Part shown: positions 40,027-49,109 of the stretch, piece by piece
Layout of the letters: each line of letters begins with the position of its first letter
How positions within the stretch are numbered: the first letter of the stretch is position 1
NCBI GenBank assembly: GCA_009711805.1
Contig: VEMX01000050.1
Span: 1-49,109, forward strand
Reading direction: 5' to 3'
DNA from: Balneolaceae bacterium
GTDB lineage: Bacteria; Bacteroidota; Rhodothermia; Balneolales; Balneolaceae
DNA: 49,109 nt
Made by a program: the position numbers and the translations under genes
The notes under the pieces: generated by a model
What the model was told of the DNA's origin: nothing
Seen by the model: only the letters and a program-made list of their open reading frames with translations
The model's database searches: none

Positions 40027-40260
40027 ATGCCACTATTCCAAAATGCGGTACTGAATACATATTTATCGGGGATTGATGAAGCCGAATGGCTCGACTATTT
40101 CACCCAACAAAAAGCCCAGGCCGACGAGCTAAAAACCCAAATCGCCCAAACGGATTCCGAGATTGAAGGGATGGTTTATGAGTTGTATGGGGTGGGGGAG
40201 GAGGAAGTTGGGGTTGTGGAAAAAACAAGAACTAATTTTATTCCTCCAATCTGGTCCAAG
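40027..40260 (+). pseudogene. internally deleted type IIG restriction-modification gene
   Basis: The frame starts MPLFQNAVLNTYLSGIDE, the N-terminus of Eco57I-like type IIG enzymes. It runs directly into EAEWLDYFTQQKAQADELKT and then TDSEIEGMVYELYGVGEEEVGVVE, which is their C-terminus. The methylase and nuclease body, normally about 900-1000 residues, is missing. The frame has no proper stop and reads on through REP-like repeats to 40623. This is a fossil left by a large internal deletion. Based on memory of family ends; no search was possible. Confidence 0.65.
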
Positions 40261-40278
40261 CATATAAAATACTTAACT

Positions 40279-40415
40279 AGTTCCAGCGTCCGCTGGGACT
40301 ATTGTCGCTCATTAGAAGTGTCCCACCGGACCCTTCCTTGCCGGCAGGCACCCGGCCCGGGTGAGCAGCAAAGGGATTTAGCCCGATATGTGACAAGGGG
40401 TTGCAACCCCTTGTC
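40279..40415. repeat. REP-like hairpins behind the type IIG relic
   Basis: AGTTCCAGCG/CGCTGGGACT at 40279-40300 (one mismatch) and a perfect 24-base palindrome at 40392-40415 with halves GACAAGGGGTTG and CAACCCCTTGTC. The second is the intact form of the hairpin at 39947. Between them CCGG- and GGCC-rich short repeats occur. Confidence 0.6.
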
Positions 40416-40521
40416 TGGTGGTGTGGCCAAACGAACCGTTCCCGTAAAACCCCGTGATGTTAATAACAGTCCCCAATCTCACAACCCCAACACCTCTGCA
40501 GGCTTACAATTGGCATACCTG

Positions 40522-41865
40522 CTATCCGCCGGAAGCCAATTCAGGATGCAGTTGATGCAGAAAGTGGTACACCGCTTTCCAGTATTCAGCGGCTCCTTTT
40601 TGTCCATTCCAGAGTGCGCGTGATCCATGAAAGCCGGCACTTTCAGGGATGAACTGGATTTGATTGTTGCCCAACTGAACATTTTCCAATATCGTTTGTA
40701 TCTCACCGGCTTCTTCTTTTGAGGAGGCAATCAGGAAGGGGAGGTCCAGCGTAGCCAAAACCGTTTTTAATGGGGGTTTAGCAGTGCCAAAGTAATCCCC
40801 GGGGCTAAAGGCGATCACCCCGTTGACCTTCTCCATTTCTTTTGCAGAGGCTGTAAAGAAAGCGAGGCTGGCCGAATAGGAACTGCCCCAAAGGGTCACC
40901 GTCTTTCCATACTTTTCAGCCAGGTATTCAACAGCTGCATGTATATCCTGCTGGGCATCCAAAAAATCCGTGTCAGTATGCTGCATGCGGGCCTGCTCAA
41001 ATGTTTGATTAGGCTGCCCGGCAAAAGAACCGCCGGATCGTTGATCTATTGCCAGCACGTTAAAGCCCCATTCGGCAAGTTTGGGTGCAATATCCGCATA
41101 TTCGTATTTGTTGTAGTTCGCCTGGTGACACAACAGGATAACGGGGTTTTCGGCATGGGTTTCATATAGGTTAGCTGAAACGATAAGCCCGTCCGCAGAT
41201 TTGAAGGAAACAGCCTTGGGAGGGTGCTTTTGGCCCAGGCTTCCCGGAGAGGGAGTTTGCACACTGCTTTTTAAAGCTTGTTGTGCTTTTTGTTGCTCTT
41301 CCAGCAGATTATCGACCAATTCTATTTTGGTGATGTTGCCCTGCTCGTTAAAGTGGATGGCCGAGGTGCGTTTGCCTAGGGCGGTAAAATCATATTGAAC
41401 CGTAGCCTTTCCCGTGTTGCTTTTAACAATAGTCAGGGAGTTCAGTGTGGGTACATTTGAAAAGACCTGTCCAAGAATCTGCTGGCTTAGCCGGGCAGGA
41501 TAGGTGTGGAATGCGAGTTCTGTATCGAGAAAAGGTTTAACGGCAAGAATGTCTTTCTCCTTAAAACTCTGTTTCAGTGCTTCTATTTGCTCGTGGTAAG
41601 CAGTCTTGTGTTGGGCATGAGCATCAGAAGTAAACGACATGGAGGTTAAGCCTGCCAGCACAATGATTGTGAGTGATCTTGATGTAGTGCGACTTCTTTT
41701 TTCAAAAAATAAAAGAACAGCCAGGATGATAATACCTCCGGCTGCAATATTGGCTATAGCTTTGGTCCCCAAAATCCAAAAGTTCAGGGGAAGGAAGACA
41801 TTAATGCCTCCCATAATAATAGCGACGGCACACAACGTCTTTATAAATAGATTTAATTTCTGCAT
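40522..41865 (-). CDS. membrane-anchored alpha/beta hydrolase with N-terminal domain
   Basis: A 447-aa protein. Three hydrophobic segments lie at about 9-27, 34-53 and 64-84, the last ending near DAHAQ. A helical/beta domain (about 85-190: KTAYHEQIEALKQSF to FNEQGNITKIELV), shaped like a DUF3887-type NTF2-like fold, precedes the hydrolase at 215-440: LLCHQANYN, nucleophile in GSSYSA, and His in SAGFHGSRAL. It reads convergently against the type IIG relic. Substrate unknown. Confidence 0.75.
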   Translation of the reverse strand: MQKLNLFIKTLCAVAIIMGGINVFLPLNFWILGTKAIANIAAGGIIILAVLLFFEKRSRTTSRSLTIIVLAGLTSMSFTSDAHAQHKTAYHEQIEALKQSFKEKDILAVKPFLDTELAFHTYPARLSQQILGQVFSNVPTLNSLTIVKSNTGKATVQYDFTALGKRTSAIHFNEQGNITKIELVDNLLEEQQKAQQALKSSVQTPSPGSLGQKHPPKAVSFKSADGLIVSANLYETHAENPVILLCHQANYNKYEYADIAPKLAEWGFNVLAIDQRSGGSFAGQPNQTFEQARMQHTDTDFLDAQQDIHAAVEYLAEKYGKTVTLWGSSYSASLAFFTASAKEMEKVNGVIAFSPGDYFGTAKPPLKTVLATLDLPFLIASSKEEAGEIQTILENVQLGNNQIQFIPESAGFHGSRALWNGQKGAAEYWKAVYHFLHQLHPELASGG

Positions 41866-42998: not shown

Positions 42999-43607
42999 TT
43001 ATACTTGTTCTATCATATAGAACATTTCTGCGGCAATTTGTCTGCAGCGTTCATCATAGGTTTGTGTCTCCAGTTCCGTACCATCCGATTTCTTAGGATC
43101 ATGGTAACTGATAATTGCACGGTAATCAGCCCCCGGCACCCTTGGACAGCTTTCATCGGCATCCGAGCACGTCATAATTGCAGCGAAATCCTGACTGGGA
43201 TTTTGCGGATTATCAAAAATTTTCGAATAGCAGGGGATAGGAGGAAGGTGTTCGCTAAAACTGATTTGATAGACGGGGTTCTCCCTTTCAGGGTGTCTGA
43301 TTTTGAATCCCGCTCTTTCTAAAGCTGCCGCCGCCCGTTTATTAAAAGCGGTTACTTCCGTTCCTCCCGAAAAGGTTTCTATTCCTTCTACCTTAAAGTA
43401 ATGAGCTGCTACAGCCGCCCATAGAGCAGCAAAATGACTTCTCCGGCTGTTATGTGTACAAATAAAGATTAACCTGGCTGTCCCGGCATCCTCTGTTTTG
43501 GAGCGGATATAATCTGCTGTCTCCGAAAGGATGAGCTTGCGTGCATCACCAATGTGGGGATAGTATTCATTTAAGCAGCTAAGATACTGCACCAGGTTTT
43601 GATACAT
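42999..43607 (-). CDS. arsenate reductase-like low-molecular-weight phosphatase
   Basis: A 202-aa protein of the LMW tyrosine phosphatase/ArsC fold. P-loop CTHNSRRS at 50-57 (Cys50, Arg56). Further cysteines at 127, 148 and 155 lie in IPCYSK and MTCSDADESCP, as in thioredoxin-coupled ArsC relatives. Likely reduces arsenate to arsenite for ArsM. Larger than standard ArsC (about 135 aa) because of an N-terminal helical part of about 40 residues. Ends the arsR-arsM run. Confidence 0.82.
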   Translation of the reverse strand: MYQNLVQYLSCLNEYYPHIGDARKLILSETADYIRSKTEDAGTARLIFICTHNSRRSHFAALWAAVAAHYFKVEGIETFSGGTEVTAFNKRAAAALERAGFKIRHPERENPVYQISFSEHLPPIPCYSKIFDNPQNPSQDFAAIMTCSDADESCPRVPGADYRAIISYHDPKKSDGTELETQTYDERCRQIAAEMFYMIEQV

Positions 43608-43636
43608 ATAAAAGACGGATAACGATTTTTAAATGT

Positions 43637-44542
43637 TTAGCAGCATCCTGAACCGGGGGTGCAGCACGAGTTGCTTGAATCAATTAGAGTAACAGATTCT
43701 TTAGTAACCGACTTGGTTTCGCCGCCGGCTTTTTGGGCAAATACCGTAATACTGGTTATACCCATTGATCCTGAATTAAAGGATGATATCTCTTCTTCCG
43801 AGAGATATTGACTGAGGATGTCATCGGGGATCTCAATCGGCTTCTCTTTTTGAACGGTAATATTTTCAAAACCGGCGTCCTTTATATAACCCAGGTATGT
43901 CTCTTTTTGAATAGCTCCAGCTACACAGCCTGCGTACATTTCAGCATCATTACGAAGTGCATCAGGCAGTTCACCTTCCAGTACAATATCAGAAATACTA
44001 AAATGTCCGCCTGCCTTTAGTACCCGATGCATTTCAGTAAATACTTTTTCTTTATTGGGAACCAGGTTAAGCACACAGTTACTGACAATTACATCAGCCA
44101 TGTTTTCTGAAACCGGCATATCTTCAATATCACCATAACGGAATTCTACATTATTGAATCCAAGTTTATCCGCATTTTTGCGGGCTTTACTGATCATGGG
44201 CTCGGTGAAGTCTATTCCCAGTACCTTACCTTCGGCCCCGGTTTCGTGACGGGCTACAAAACAGTCGTTTCCGGCCCCCGACCCTAAATCAATGACGGTG
44301 TCGCCTTTCTGTATTTGTGCAAACTCGGTGGGCAGCCCGCATCCTAAACCAAGATCACCTTCCGGCTGGTATCCTTCCAGCTTACTATAGTCATCGGTCA
44401 TAATATTATACACCTTGGTGGATTCACCTCCGGCACCACAGCAGGAGCGGGCGTTATAATCTGCCCCTTGTTCACTAATTTGGCTGTATTTTTGGCGTAC
44501 GGTTTCTTTGAGTTCTTCAGCAGTTTTTTGATCGGTATTCAT
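43637..44542 (-). CDS. arsM: arsenite S-adenosylmethionine methyltransferase
   Basis: A 301-aa SAM-dependent enzyme that methylates arsenite to volatile or less toxic methylarsenicals. SAM motif VIDLGSGAGND at 83-93. The arsenite cysteines are Cys68 (GLGCGL), Cys156 (SNCVLN) and Cys206 (YAGCVAG), with the 50-residue spacing between the last two seen in CmArsM (174/224). RSCCGAG at 32-38 and a Cys-rich end CCTPGSGCC add thiols. Starts 1 base after the arsR stop and precedes the phosphatase gene by 29 bases. Confidence 0.93.
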   Translation of the reverse strand: MNTDQKTAEELKETVRQKYSQISEQGADYNARSCCGAGGESTKVYNIMTDDYSKLEGYQPEGDLGLGCGLPTEFAQIQKGDTVIDLGSGAGNDCFVARHETGAEGKVLGIDFTEPMISKARKNADKLGFNNVEFRYGDIEDMPVSENMADVIVSNCVLNLVPNKEKVFTEMHRVLKAGGHFSISDIVLEGELPDALRNDAEMYAGCVAGAIQKETYLGYIKDAGFENITVQKEKPIEIPDDILSQYLSEEEISSFNSGSMGITSITVFAQKAGGETKSVTKESVTLIDSSNSCCTPGSGCC

Positions 44543-44543
44543 A

Positions 44544-44879
44544 TTAACAGCAAGTTGCTTTTTGTGAGGAATTGAGTTGTTCTATAAATGGCAGAATTAA
44601 GTCATTAAGCTGGTTAATGCCTTCTTCATCTAAACAATAGCATACTTGTATGCCTTCCGTTTTGCCCTTAATAAGATGAGCCTCTTTTAAGGCTTTAAGA
44701 TGCTGGGAAACGGTAGACTGTGCAAGCGGCAGGGTATCGGCGATAGCACCACAAATACACTCCCGGCGCTGGATGAGTAATTCCAGGATTGCCAGGCGGG
44801 CAGGATGCGCCATCGCTTTTAGTATTTCTGCTTTTTGTTGTTGAGAAGAAGTAAAAAGTGTTGCTTTTGTTTGTGCCAT
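44544..44879 (-). CDS. arsR: ArsR family transcriptional repressor
   Basis: A 111-aa winged-helix repressor. The start at 44879 (MAQTKATLF) is chosen; an upstream in-frame start would place the operator inside the gene. HTH QSTVSQHLKALKEAHLI at 54-70. Arsenite-sensing cysteines Cys41 and Cys43 in ECICG (the ELCVC equivalent), with Cys80, Cys82 and a terminal CC. Arsenite should release it from the operator just upstream and switch on arsR-arsM and the phosphatase. Confidence 0.9.
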   Translation of the reverse strand: MAQTKATLFTSSQQQKAEILKAMAHPARLAILELLIQRRECICGAIADTLPLAQSTVSQHLKALKEAHLIKGKTEGIQVCYCLDEEGINQLNDLILPFIEQLNSSQKATCC

Positions 44880-44889
44880 ATAATCGTTT

Positions 44890-44905
44890 ATCGTAAATAT
44901 ACGAT
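44890..44905 (-). promoter_or_regulatory. ArsR operator
   Basis: ATCGTA at 44890-44895 and TACGAT at 44900-44905 form a perfect inverted repeat with AATA between, 11 bases before the arsR start. The position and form fit the site of ArsR-type repressors. Confidence 0.75.
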
Positions 44906-45229
44906 CCAAAATAGGGAGTTTGAATATGCAGACCAAATGAAATATTGATTTTATTTGGCTCTTAAAAGATCGCGGGGCAAGAGTTTGTAAAGCAGTACAA
45001 ATGGTTTTGGGTGAACTGAACGTTCATTCACAATTTAGAGAAAGAGGATTAATATTAAGGTAATGCAAAAGGCGTCAATATTTATTACAATAAGGGACTA
45101 CAGTAACATACCCCGAATATTATGTGTAATCTCTGAAATACGGTCAGGGAGCCTCCACCAGTGAACCGTAAAATCACTGTCACCACGTCTGAGAGTCGGT
45201 ATTAACACATAATTAACCCAATAATAGCT
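44906..45229. other. intergenic region upstream of the nuclease gene
   Basis: It must hold the promoter of arsR and that of the nuclease. TACGGT (45139-45144) can pair with ACCGTA (45165-45170), and CAGTG (45159-45163) with CACTG (45175-45179). The two pairings exclude each other. No gene or known riboswitch could be assigned. Confidence 0.4.
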
Positions 45230-48200
45230 ATGGAAGGAATCACCAAGGGCAGTGGTCTGTGGAGAAAGAGTAGCGCTTATCTTTTGTTATGCTTCTTCAT
45301 TTCAGTCTTCTGCTTTCAACCCGTCAACGCACAGAACCAAACAATTGGAGCAGGTCTTGAAGGTCAGGCCCTCATAGATTATTTACAGCAAAACTATACT
45401 CCCACCCAAACAATGGGCTATAACACCGCAAGAGATACAATGTATGCGGTTATAGATAATGATGGTGGAAATCTTAGCGGAGTATATACAGGATATACCA
45501 TAACCCTGAACCCAAACGAAGACCCAAGTACCGATGCCTACAACAAAGGCATTAATGCCGAGCATACCTGGCCCCAGAGTATGGGTGCAGGCAATGAGCC
45601 GGCTAAGTCGGATCTTCATCATTTATTTCCAACAAAATCGAATGTTAACAGTGCCCGTAATAACGATCCATTGGGAGAAATTGATGATAACCTCACGGAT
45701 ACCTGGTATTACCTGGATCAGTCGCAGTCAACCATTCCGACTTCCAACATTGATTTATATGCCGAGAATTATGGAAGTACCGCTTTTGAGCCCCGCGAAC
45801 AACACAAAGGAAATGCAGCCAGGGCCGTATTCTATTTTGTGGCGATATATCAAAGCGAAGCTGATCAGAATTTCTTCGATCAACAGAAAGATGATTTATA
45901 CCAATGGCATTATGCAGATGCAGTAGATGCCGTCGAACTTACCAGGAGCAGCGATATTGCCGGTTACCAGGGTAATGAAAATCCTTTTGTACTCGATACT
46001 TCGCTGGTACGAAGGGCTTTCTTCCCCGATGGAAATACCGGGAACGACACTACCGCACCTGTTATCAGTTCTGTTCAGAGTTCAAGTATTGGATCATCTT
46101 CGGCAACCATAACGTGGACCACCGATGAAGCTGCTACTTCTGTGGTAGATTACGGAACCACCACTTCCTATGGATCAACAGAGTCGAGCAGTAGTTCTGT
46201 TACTTCACATTCTATAACCCTGACGGGACTTACAGCCAATACGTCCTACAACTACCAGGTTAGTAGTACGGATGCGTCTTCCAATACCGGAACATCCGGC
46301 AATTATACCTTCACAACTACAGAAGAGGGAAGTGGTACGGGCACTATATTATTCTCAGAAATCTTTTATGACACCCCCGGCACCGACAGCGATGAGGAGT
46401 GGATTGAACTATACAATGGAACTTCGTCATCCATCGACCTGGCCGGTTATACCATTACCGATAATAATGGAACCGGCTCATCCTATACTTTCCCATCGGG
46501 AAGTACAGTGGCAGCCGGATCGTACTTTACGGTGGCGGCTAACTCTTCTGGATTCTATGCACTGTATGGATTTGATGCCGATCAGTATGGATCTATATCC
46601 GCCCTTAACAACTCGGGGGATGCCTTGATTTTAACCGATGGCCTCGGTACCGAAGTGGATGCCGTAGCCTGGGAAGGCGGAGCATCTGCCGGATTGCCTT
46701 CGGGCTGGGGAAGTTCAAGTGATCCTATAGCGTCAACGGGCGAGTCGATATACCGAAGTTCGGTGAGCACCGATAGCGATAGTTATTCTGACTGGGCTGT
46801 TGCCACTAATAACGGAGATCCGCAAACACAGGCATCGGTACCATCTAATGCAGATCCGGTTGCACAGATTAACGGTCCCTACAGCGGCAATACTGGCAGC
46901 AGCATATCATTCAGCAGTGCCGGTTCGTCTGATTCTGATGGAACCATTGCTTCTTATCAATGGGATTTTGGAGATGGCGGAAGCAGCAACCAGGCCAATC
47001 CTTCTCATACCTATAGCACCGCAAACACTTATACAGTAACACTTACGGTAACCGATGATGACGGAGCTACCGATCAGGCTTCAACCACCGCAACCATCAC
47101 CGACCCTGTGGTTAATTACATATTGTTTTCGGAAATCTTTTACGATACCCCGGGGACCGATGCCGATGAAGAGTGGATCGAACTTTATAATCCCACTACT
47201 TCTCAAATTACCCTGGCCGGCTTTACAATCATTGATAACAACGGAACCGGATCGTCCTATACTTTTCCCTCGGGGACCGTGATTGAGGCCGAATCCTATT
47301 TTACGGTGGCAAGTAATCAGGCTGGTTTTACCGCTTTGTATGGAAATGATGCTTACCAGTATGGCAGCATTCCTGCACTAAACAACACCGGAGACGCCCT
47401 GTTGTTAAAAGATGGATCAGGCTCCACGGTTGATGAAGTAGCCTGGGAAGGCGGAGCTTCGGCAGGAGTTCCATCGGGTTGGGGAACCGGGCCTTCTGCA
47501 TCAACAGGAGAGAGCTTGGTACGCAGCCAGTTAGATGTGGATAATGACAATGATGGTGACTGGACCATCGCTTTATCCAACGGAGACCCTGCAACGGTAA
47601 CTCCGCAGGATGTAACCGCTCCGGTTATTTCTTCGGTTAGTGCATCAGCTATTACCGAAACCGAAGCTACCATCAGCTGGACCACCGACGAAAATGCAGA
47701 CTCGCAGGTTAACTACGGCGAAACCACCAGTTATGGAAGTTCTTCCGGAAGTGGTACATATGTAACATCGCATTCGGTAACCCTAACAGGATTAACCGCC
47801 TCAACCGAATATTTTTACCAGGTTGTTTCGGTAGATGAAGCCGGGAATGTAGCAGTGGATGAAACCTATTCTTTCACTACAGCTGACCCGCCATCTGCAA
47901 ACCTGCCGGATGTTATGATTACGGAAGTGTTTTATGACACACCGGGTAATGAGTCTAAGGAAGAGTGGGTGGAGATTTACAATACCACCGGTCAGCAAAT
48001 CAATCTCAACGGATGGAAGTTGGTTGATGACAACGGCAACGGCCAGTCGTTTACATTTGCCAATAAGCATAAGATTGATGGTAACACCTTCATGACTTTT
48101 GCGCTCGATCGTAAGGACTTTAAAGCCTTGTATGGAAAGAATGCCGATGATTTTGTGAATCTGCCCCCGCTAAATAACAGTGGAGATGTATTGGTGTTAA

Positions 48201-48730
48201 AAGACGGTTCAGGCAATACCATTGATGTGGTAGCCTGGGAGGGCGGTGCCAATAGCTTGCCTTCGGGATGGGGAAGCAGCTCATTGCCATCGGCCGGGGA
48301 AGGCAATAGTATTTACCGCAGCGATATTGGTGTGGATACCGACAGTTATTCCGACTGGGCAACTTCCACAAACCTCGGTTCGCCTATGACACAATCGGAT
48401 GGAACTTTCTTTGCCAAAGTTGCAGGTTCCGACAATGGTGTTGAAGAGCCAGATGCAACAGAACTGCCGGATGAAATTTCACTCGGTAACTACCCGAATC
48501 CTTTTAACCCAACTACTCAAATCGTATATACCCTGCCCGAAACGCAGCGAGTGAAAGTGGCGGTGTACAATATGCTGGGGCAACAGGTGGCACTATTGAA
48601 GAATGGATTTGCGAAAGCAGGAAGTCATACTATTTTGTTTGACGCTTCCCGCCTTTCCAGCGGAGTGTACGTTTATACCATCCGTACAGAAACGGCCATG
48701 CTATCGAAAAAGATGCTGCTGATAAAGTAG
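45230..48730 (+). CDS. secreted endonuclease I with lamin-tail and PKD domains and T9SS sorting tail
   Basis: A 1166-aa exported protein; signal peptide to about residue 34 (PVNAQ). Endonuclease I domain at about 45-265 with EHTWPQS (111-117), DLHHLFP (128-134), Asn140 and Asn144, so the EndoI catalytic site is intact. It degrades DNA outside the cell. Then a fibronectin type III-like domain (about 277-366), lamin-tail domain 1 (about 372-520), PKD (about 545-625), lamin-tail 2 (about 630-780), a second fibronectin type III-like domain (about 795-885), lamin-tail 3 (about 890-1040), and a type IX sorting domain (NYPNPFNPTTQIVYTLPE on to the C-terminus, about 1085-1166). The three lamin-tail copies share FSEIFYDTPGTD-like starts. 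It is expected to be bound to or released from the outer membrane by T9SS. Confidence 0.93.
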   Translation: MEGITKGSGLWRKSSAYLLLCFFISVFCFQPVNAQNQTIGAGLEGQALIDYLQQNYTPTQTMGYNTARDTMYAVIDNDGGNLSGVYTGYTITLNPNEDPSTDAYNKGINAEHTWPQSMGAGNEPAKSDLHHLFPTKSNVNSARNNDPLGEIDDNLTDTWYYLDQSQSTIPTSNIDLYAENYGSTAFEPREQHKGNAARAVFYFVAIYQSEADQNFFDQQKDDLYQWHYADAVDAVELTRSSDIAGYQGNENPFVLDTSLVRRAFFPDGNTGNDTTAPVISSVQSSSIGSSSATITWTTDEAATSVVDYGTTTSYGSTESSSSSVTSHSITLTGLTANTSYNYQVSSTDASSNTGTSGNYTFTTTEEGSGTGTILFSEIFYDTPGTDSDEEWIELYNGTSSSIDLAGYTITDNNGTGSSYTFPSGSTVAAGSYFTVAANSSGFYALYGFDADQYGSISALNNSGDALILTDGLGTEVDAVAWEGGASAGLPSGWGSSSDPIASTGESIYRSSVSTDSDSYSDWAVATNNGDPQTQASVPSNADPVAQINGPYSGNTGSSISFSSAGSSDSDGTIASYQWDFGDGGSSNQANPSHTYSTANTYTVTLTVTDDDGATDQASTTATITDPVVNYILFSEIFYDTPGTDADEEWIELYNPTTSQITLAGFTIIDNNGTGSSYTFPSGTVIEAESYFTVASNQAGFTALYGNDAYQYGSIPALNNTGDALLLKDGSGSTVDEVAWEGGASAGVPSGWGTGPSASTGESLVRSQLDVDNDNDGDWTIALSNGDPATVTPQDVTAPVISSVSASAITETEATISWTTDENADSQVNYGETTSYGSSSGSGTYVTSHSVTLTGLTASTEYFYQVVSVDEAGNVAVDETYSFTTADPPSANLPDVMITEVFYDTPGNESKEEWVEIYNTTGQQINLNGWKLVDDNGNGQSFTFANKHKIDGNTFMTFALDRKDFKALYGKNADDFVNLPPLNNSGDVLVLKDGSGNTIDVVAWEGGANSLPSGWGSSSLPSAGEGNSIYRSDIGVDTDSYSDWATSTNLGSPMTQSDGTFFAKVAGSDNGVEEPDATELPDEISLGNYPNPFNPTTQIVYTLPETQRVKVAVYNMLGQQVALLKNGFAKAGSHTILFDASRLSSGVYVYTIRTETAMLSKKMLLIK

Positions 48731-49022: not shown

Positions 49023-49109
49023 ATGAACAAGCGAAAACTAAACAAACACCGTTATTTTAGCGAACAAATCCGTCGTAAAGCCGTCAAGGAATTTCGTAGC
49101 GGAACCTAT
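49023..49109 (+). CDS. partial transposase orfA, cut by window edge
   Basis: Starts MNKRKLNKHRYFSEQIRRKA and continues in frame to the window end (29 residues, no stop). The basic start and SEQIRRKAVKEFRSGTY match the first helix of the helix-turn-helix in IS3-like orfA proteins. The left end of the element should lie within the 240 bases upstream, which hold no gene, but I cannot place it. Confidence 0.5.
   Translation, partial: MNKRKLNKHRYFSEQIRRKAVKEFRSGTY

Follow-up and report, generated by a model that had tools for sequence, protein, structure and literature searches.

Riboswitches of the 2′-deoxyguanosine class II (2′-dG-II) are set apart by C51, C74, a UC insertion in J3/1 and a G-C junction pair, according to the available text of PMC8872408. 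The genes named there downstream of these riboswitches in Bacteroidetes encode endonuclease I, ComEC, phospholipase D and a receiver domain. The link between the 2′-dG-II riboswitch and endonuclease I is therefore already in print; as the named genes are mixed, the purpose of the riboswitches is not settled in that text. Nucleases bearing lamin tail domains (LTDs) and their possible use of extracellular DNA (eDNA) are also in print, in the available parts of PMC8289736, PMC6085458 and PMC4486849. Here we describe a 49,109 nt stretch of DNA from Balneolaceae bacterium (assembly GCA_009711805.1, contig VEMX01000050.1, positions 1 to 49,109; hereafter the window), in which a secreted LTD-bearing nuclease is preceded by an aptamer of the 2′-dG-II type. 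We consider it likely that the gene encodes a DNase, exported by the type IX secretion system (T9SS), that feeds on eDNA, and that its leader carries a 2′-deoxyguanosine-type riboswitch.

The nuclease gene and the aptamer in its leader

The leader contains the following elements, all on the plus strand.

45119-45191, plus strand: 2′-dG-II-type riboswitch aptamer with P1, P2, P3 and kissing loops (RF03165, RF00167, covariation)
45119-45127, plus strand: arm 1 of a putative competing helix (AUUAUGUGU), which is the 5′ strand of P1 and pairs with 45205-45213 in the minimum free energy fold
45151-45159, plus strand: J2/3, GCCUCCACC (from sequence)
45179-45184, plus strand: J3/1 GUCAC and the first C of P1, comprising the UC insertion and the junction-proximal G-C pair (from sequence)
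45205-45213, plus strand: arm 2 of the putative competing helix (ACACAUAAU), whose end lies 16 nt 5′ of the start codon

The aptamer ends 38 nt 5′ of the nuclease start codon, and no other part of the window matches Rfam at E ≤ 0.1. It aligns with the full length of RF03165 (model positions 1-71 of 71; E 1.2e-12 in a 4.2-kb search and 1.4e-11 when the whole window was searched), and the orthologous leader in G280 scores 63.0 bits (G, C and L numbers are our handles for genomes, contigs and loci). The purine riboswitch clan model RF00167 also matches, at 46.1 bits and thus above its gathering cut-off of 37. Two observations speak against the class assignment: the RF03165 score of 56.1 bits is under the gathering score of 60 bits, which is a library cut-off and not a biological trait, and RF03165 also matches below cut-off in a Bacillus subtilis control, showing cross-reactivity with other purine riboswitches. 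Assignment to the class accordingly rests on the core nucleotides, and we use the name 2′-dG-II-type for this member of the purine clan. In our mapping of the numbering, C51, which selects the nucleoside in the 2′-dG classes, falls on base 45156, and C74, the UC insertion in J3/1 and the G-C junction pair of P1 are all found. Among the 19 aptamers of our census (see below), 18 have C51 and 17 have GUCACC with the UC insertion.

Covariation supports the structure. In an alignment of these 19 aptamers (17 distinct rows, fitted to the model), 58 cells carried double-sided changes, whereas shuffles gave 24.5 and slid controls no more than 14. Pairing was found in 86-90% of cells in P2 and P3 and in 69% in P1, where just three junction-proximal pairs were kept across all rows. 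The window leader has an ordinary fold energy (z −0.04), so that energy alone would not have revealed the aptamer. The aptamer is thus of the 2′-dG-II type by its sequence, and we predict that it binds deoxyguanosine and controls expression.

The nuclease open reading frame (ORF), whose existence we verified, is composed as follows.

45230-48730, plus strand: secreted modular nuclease of 1166 aa with an ATG start; signal peptide at about residues 1-35, by eye
45389-45991, plus strand: Endonuclease_1 domain (102 bits)
45560-45658, plus strand: motif residues E111-H112, N140 and R143
46055-46318, plus strand: fibronectin-III-like domain 1 (Pur_ac_phosph_N/fn3; Pfam, approximate boundaries)
46331-46675, plus strand: LTD1 (88.8 bits; AlphaFold2 model; K+R 0, D+E 16)
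46847-47098, plus strand: PKD domain (Pfam)
47117-47449, plus strand: LTD2 (78.7 bits; K+R 1, D+E 16)
47636-47881, plus strand: fibronectin-III-like domain 2 (Pfam)
47894-48241, plus strand: LTD3 (78.2 bits; K+R 9, D+E 18)
48491-48715, plus strand: T9SS type A C-terminal sorting domain (Por_Secre_tail, TIGR04183)

A sequence-only reading of the window had proposed a modular nuclease at this position, with endonuclease I followed by three LTDs, one PKD domain, two fibronectin-like domains and a T9SS tail. The ORF and all of these domains were borne out by Pfam and TIGR04183, but the modules are interleaved (signal peptide, Endonuclease I, fn3, LTD1, PKD, LTD2, fn3, LTD3, T9SS tail) and do not form blocks, and the coordinates given, correct for the ORF, left out the regulatory leader with the aptamer. 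Endonuclease_1 matched residues 54-254 (9.1e-28; 98 bits against a cut-off of 25), LTD matched three stretches (1.5e-66), PKD_4 one (1.5e-23) and Pur_ac_phosph_N/fn3 two. The PKD domain varies among the orthologues, being present in G280 and G314 and absent from G017 and G427. The reading had also credited the endonuclease with all its motifs, and this held: E111, H112, N140 and R143 are identical in all 32 Endonuclease_1 domains compared from this genome and its relatives. Score and EH/N/R motif together place the domain in the Endonuclease I family (PF04231). We take its fold to be of the beta-beta-alpha-metal class and the four residues to be catalytic, naming them after the work on Vvn and EndA. 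The C-terminus matches Por_Secre_tail (1.8e-11) and the TIGR04183 T9SS type A tail (3.5e-11), and the genome encodes T9SS parts (SprA_N, 1.9e-93; PorU sortase, 1070 bits), which together mark the protein as predicted T9SS type A cargo.

Aptamers, nuclease heads and lamin tail domains across genomes

Searches of this genome found two Endonuclease_1 genes and two purine-clan riboswitches, and each gene has one of the riboswitches in front of it. Across 394 genomes of the phylum, RF03165 detected 13 places in 11 genomes, with filter settings under which weak matches are missed. In every case the next gene is a nuclease ORF whose product has a signal peptide, as judged by eye: eight Endonuclease I, four EEP and one Endonuclease_NS (G038). 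The EEP domain is significant in Pfam for G195 and G087, and the proteins of G125 and G073 are 95-98% identical to that of G087. Our own model, R1, found 14 places in 11 of 92 genomes of the family and added two aptamers in G427, both before Endonuclease I. A pattern scan of the genome contig collection gave 18 loci; R1 supported nine, namely six in the Balneola group that were already counted, one in a Gemmatimonadetes metagenome-assembled genome (MAG) and two in KSB1 MAGs, and RF03165 contributed one more KSB1 place. The counts are lower bounds, the genome searches scoring only part of the first-look candidates (12 per genome for RF03165 in the phylum; 150 of 543 for the generic purine model in this genome). 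Rejected candidates comprise the nine pattern loci not supported by R1 (two at 16-18 bits, seven without a match), both loci in viral contigs (13.6 bits and no match) and three Clostridium places of RF03165 (39-46 bits), which are probably guanine riboswitches and were kept out of the census.

In 16 of the 19 aptamers, the gene directly downstream encodes a secreted nuclease. These enzymes have three unrelated folds (10 Endonuclease I, five EEP and one Endonuclease_NS), and all except that of G038 carry a T9SS-type tail (15/16). Control of DNA foraging by a breakdown product is favored by this association, which offers a testable answer as to the purpose of 2′-dG-II riboswitches, namely that they report eDNA being eaten. 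The Gemmatimonadetes MAG carries an EEP nuclease with three PKD domains and two LTDs (L141:4205-7957, minus strand) behind an aptamer that exceeds the Rfam cut-off (65.2 bits); this MAG lies outside the Bacteroidetes range given in the available text of PMC8872408.

Two of the KSB1 aptamers precede operons alike in gene order and lengths (L140:255-12014 and L139:6512-18334). These begin with a 713/715-aa surface protein of no known family and an LTD protein with a T9SS tail, followed by a 482/509-aa protein, a TonB receptor, a PorV/FadL-like protein and an NHL repeat protein, the last three annotated by Pfam in L140 only. The third (L139:4726-4800, minus strand) lies about 600 nt 5′ of a TonB-type receptor gene and divergent to a secreted EEP nuclease gene; it carries GCCACC in J3/1 and a U in place of C51, and may bind another ligand.

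A tree built from 32 nuclease domains separates the ten Endonuclease I sequences that follow a riboswitch into a clade of four of the LTD type and six others, which belong to a clade of seven holding the Calx-beta type. The six riboswitch-led genes of the latter type encode Calx-beta domains and no LTD (Pfam, E ≤ 0.001). An INEMHYDN-like stretch resembling the start of an LTD was noticed in two Calx-beta nucleases, L146:1170-3164 (minus strand), where it was read by eye below the Pfam threshold, and L084:666-2675 (plus strand), which has a short partial match to a local LTD profile; the Calx-beta nucleases may thus carry a divergent LTD.

At one syntenic site the nuclease differs between genera. 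The paralogue on contig C6 of this genome, an Endonuclease I with Calx-beta domains, has a riboswitch of its own, and its flanking genes also flank the riboswitch-led EEP-LTD nuclease of genus g18. The shared flanks encode proteins of 311 and 220 aa on one side and of 462 and 408 aa on the other, with 55-83% identity; in stretches of 19.9 kb, G087 and G125 share all four of them, G073 shares three and G195 one. The riboswitch at one site is therefore followed by unrelated nucleases in different genera. In G087 the site has additional ORFs, five to one side and two to the other, and Pfam annotation of 10 flank proteins gave no DNA-catabolism genes.

An AlphaFold2 model of LTD1 (15-sequence alignment; predicted local distance difference test score 82) had lamin tails as its top 16 PDB matches; the profile matches and the Ig fold, modeled for LTD1 alone, thus assign the repeats to PF00932. 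LTD1 shares 61-70% identity with the LTDs of the riboswitch-led EEP nucleases (70% with LTD1 of the Gemmatimonadetes EEP protein), LTD3 is more distant (43-55% to EEP LTDs), and other LTDs of this genome share 20-37% with the three in the window. The LTD tree was poorly resolved: of its 25 inner branches, 4 had good support. When 389 genomes were searched with LTD1 (E ≤ 1e-15), 24 places came up in nine genomes, within one ORF each, and all nine ORFs encode secreted nucleases, four Endonuclease I and five EEP (in G125 and G073 by identity to G087). This subtype, found only in secreted nucleases and on two unrelated heads, is therefore linked to DNA degradation. The LTD as a whole is not nuclease-specific: of the five ORFs with LTDs in this genome, four have no match to a nuclease family (a CotH kinase, a protein with four LTDs and two more), and these carry other subtypes.

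We tentatively propose, giving it slightly less than an even chance, that the riboswitch and the nuclease-specific LTD array form a conserved DNA-foraging module in which the heads, Endonuclease I or EEP, are swapped even at one site; that the leader induces the DNase with deoxyguanosine from eDNA; and that related aptamers mark DNA-uptake loci in KSB1 and Gemmatimonadota.

Direction of the switch and competing explanations

In the proposed mechanism, the nuclease would cut eDNA at the cell surface and other enzymes would finish the fragments to nucleosides. Deoxyguanosine would then enter the cell, bind the aptamer and close P1, and closure would break the helix 45119-45127:45205-45213 and change nuclease translation. 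The two arms, AUUAUGUGU and ACACAUAAU, pair perfectly, and ACACAUAA is conserved in the orthologous leaders G017 and G280a. Compared with shuffled downstream DNA, the helix gave p = 0.007 in the window, 0.005 in G280a and 0.106 in G017. The LTD-type leaders keep the 5′ strand (AUUAU; UUUAU in G017) though its P1 partner strand drifts, which argues that the competing helix is probably real in these leaders. As the helix would be the ligand-free form and sits just before the start codon, the model suggests a translational ON switch.

Several results weigh against the proposed mechanism. Over 15 leaders taken together, the competing helix fell short of significance (Fisher 0.056), with 2/15 under 0.05 (G427a, G427b and G073 were dropped as near-copies and G038 was not entered). 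Accessibility modeling, in which the partition function of the start region was computed with and without a constrained aptamer and with 150 dinucleotide shuffles each, gave no general ON signal in 14 of the 19 leaders (the set left out G038, the Gemmatimonadetes leader and three KSB1 leaders), the mean change being 0.001 versus 0.023 in shuffles. The three KSB1 aptamers have no nuclease directly behind them. Of the 32 related Endonuclease I genes, 22 yielded no aptamer (one of them, L106, begins at the end of a contig), and none was found at an LTD-type Endonuclease I orthologue (G314:C14, L180) or at an EEP-LTD gene (G272:C29, L181); the latter two, both among the nine ORFs of the LTD subtype, invite a comparison of regulation. 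In L180, an ORF that looks UmuC-like by eye has its end some 160 nt 5′ of the nuclease gene. Among 14 other ORFs scanned, which are part of the ORFs in the window, neither a nucleoside transporter nor a nucleotidase was seen, the genome not having been searched for them.

The chief alternative for the direction is an OFF switch, in which accumulating deoxyguanosine shuts down nuclease production as product repression; we give it a substantial chance, if a minority one. Purine riboswitches before synthesis or import genes are typically OFF, and the accessibility modeling does not favor ON. Against an OFF switch stand the position of the ligand-free competing helix just 5′ of the start codon and the leader itself, in which no terminator-like site was found; T-runs in five other leaders were unconvincing. 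Pairing of J2/3 with downstream DNA gave a Fisher p of 5e-4, with 3/15 under 0.05, in a test that was chosen post hoc on related leaders and is dominated by KSB356a. On balance we lean modestly toward activation, in which the enzyme's own product induces it. The ligand could also be guanosine or guanine, so that the aptamer would report nucleic acids or purines in general. A related variant, 2′-dG-III, binds guanosine with similar affinity, according to the available text of PMC9295807. RNA can be a substrate of EEP and NS nucleases, RF03165 cross-reacts in the control, and a U stands in place of C51 in one KSB1 aptamer. The near-constant C51 and the GUCACC with its UC insertion make this rather unlikely.

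Two further explanations concern what the enzyme is for. The sequence-only reading held that the three LTDs tether eDNA for phosphate or nucleotide feeding, with no part for regulation. Pfam confirms the domains, the LTD subtype was found only in nucleases, and DNA binding by the LTDs of DNases is proposed in the available text of PMC4486849. However, LTD1 and LTD2 together have one Lys/Arg against 32 Asp/Glu and are a poor fit to plain DNA binding or simple tethering, although the acidity of the whole mature protein (net −108) weakens this argument. Six riboswitch-led Endonuclease I genes carry Calx-beta domains and no LTD by Pfam (the partial match in L084 aside), and the LTD of ExeM was dispensable for eDNA degradation in vivo, while activity in vitro fell without it (available text of PMC6085458). 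The aptamer in the leader further speaks against an explanation without regulation, which we regard as unlikely. The claim that the LTDs hold DNA has the tie to nucleases in its favor, and charge and ExeM against it; the array probably contributes to the work of the DNase by placing enzyme and substrate, perhaps with Ca2+, and is probably not a simple basic DNA clamp. As for feeding, the nucleotide part gains from the deoxyguanosine-type aptamer; nothing pointed to phosphate, the divergent neighbors resembling an arsenic operon (by eye) and the 14 other window ORFs scanned showing no phosphate gene. An equally unlikely alternative is biofilm remodeling or defense against DNA traps, with the riboswitch tuned to eDNA levels and not to feeding. 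A KSB1 riboswitch operon with TonB-receptor and outer-membrane protein genes, and another KSB1 aptamer before a TonB-type receptor gene, fit uptake better. Feeding on eDNA under riboswitch control thus remains our preferred reading.

Neighborhood and comparison with known systems

Divergent from the nuclease lies what looks like an arsenic operon (42999-44936, minus strand; ArsM/ArsC naming by eye), which also holds a 202-aa ORF without a Pfam match.

44544-44936, minus strand: ArsR-type regulator
43637-44542, minus strand: methyltransferase

On the other side, an ORF resembling an IS3-type transposase orfA (by eye) begins at 49024 and runs to the very end of the contig (49109), so the downstream neighborhood was probably cut by an insertion element. 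A 198-aa ORF at 40027-40623 (plus strand), possibly a remnant, has no Pfam match; by eye, it looks like a type II restriction enzyme tail.

The census also provides a candidate regulatory marker by which DNA-foraging loci could be recognized in uncultured bacteria. A defined LTD subtype on two unrelated enzymes also provides a testbed for the role of bacterial LTDs, an open question in the available text of PMC6085458. Our literature search found no paper on a nuclease head swap or an LTD module, and none, in a coverage that did not include key primary riboswitch papers, that joined the riboswitch with LTD, T9SS, EEP or NS nucleases; both results hold for the text that was available.

ExeM of Shewanella oneidensis (LTD, YhcR-like OB and EEP) is likewise an exported LTD-bearing nuclease, but it has another catalytic domain, a single N-terminal LTD and a C-terminal membrane anchor, and is associated with the inner membrane; the available text of PMC6085458 mentions no riboswitch. 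Halophile LTD-containing enzymes of the DNase I family share the combination of nuclease and lamin tail but have another catalytic fold (PMC4486849); a 1049-aa Izemoplasma nuclease also carries a lamin tail, and eDNA use was proposed for it (PMC8289736). PKD domains occur in some of these LTD nucleases, and a riboswitch is mentioned for neither group in the available texts. The Endonuclease I family (EndA/Vvn/BsnI; PF04231) shares the E-H...N..R motif and the Pfam match; its matched solved members are chains of 210-213 aa, whereas the window nuclease has seven added modules including the T9SS tail. With the described 2′-dG-II riboswitches (RF03165; available text of PMC8872408), the aptamer shares the three-way junction, the C51/C74 core, the UC insertion in J3/1, the G-C junction pair and the endonuclease I gene downstream. 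It differs in standing before an LTD-armed T9SS nuclease, and the census adds EEP and Endonuclease_NS enzymes to the genes behind such aptamers, and Gemmatimonadetes and KSB1 MAGs to the Balneola group.

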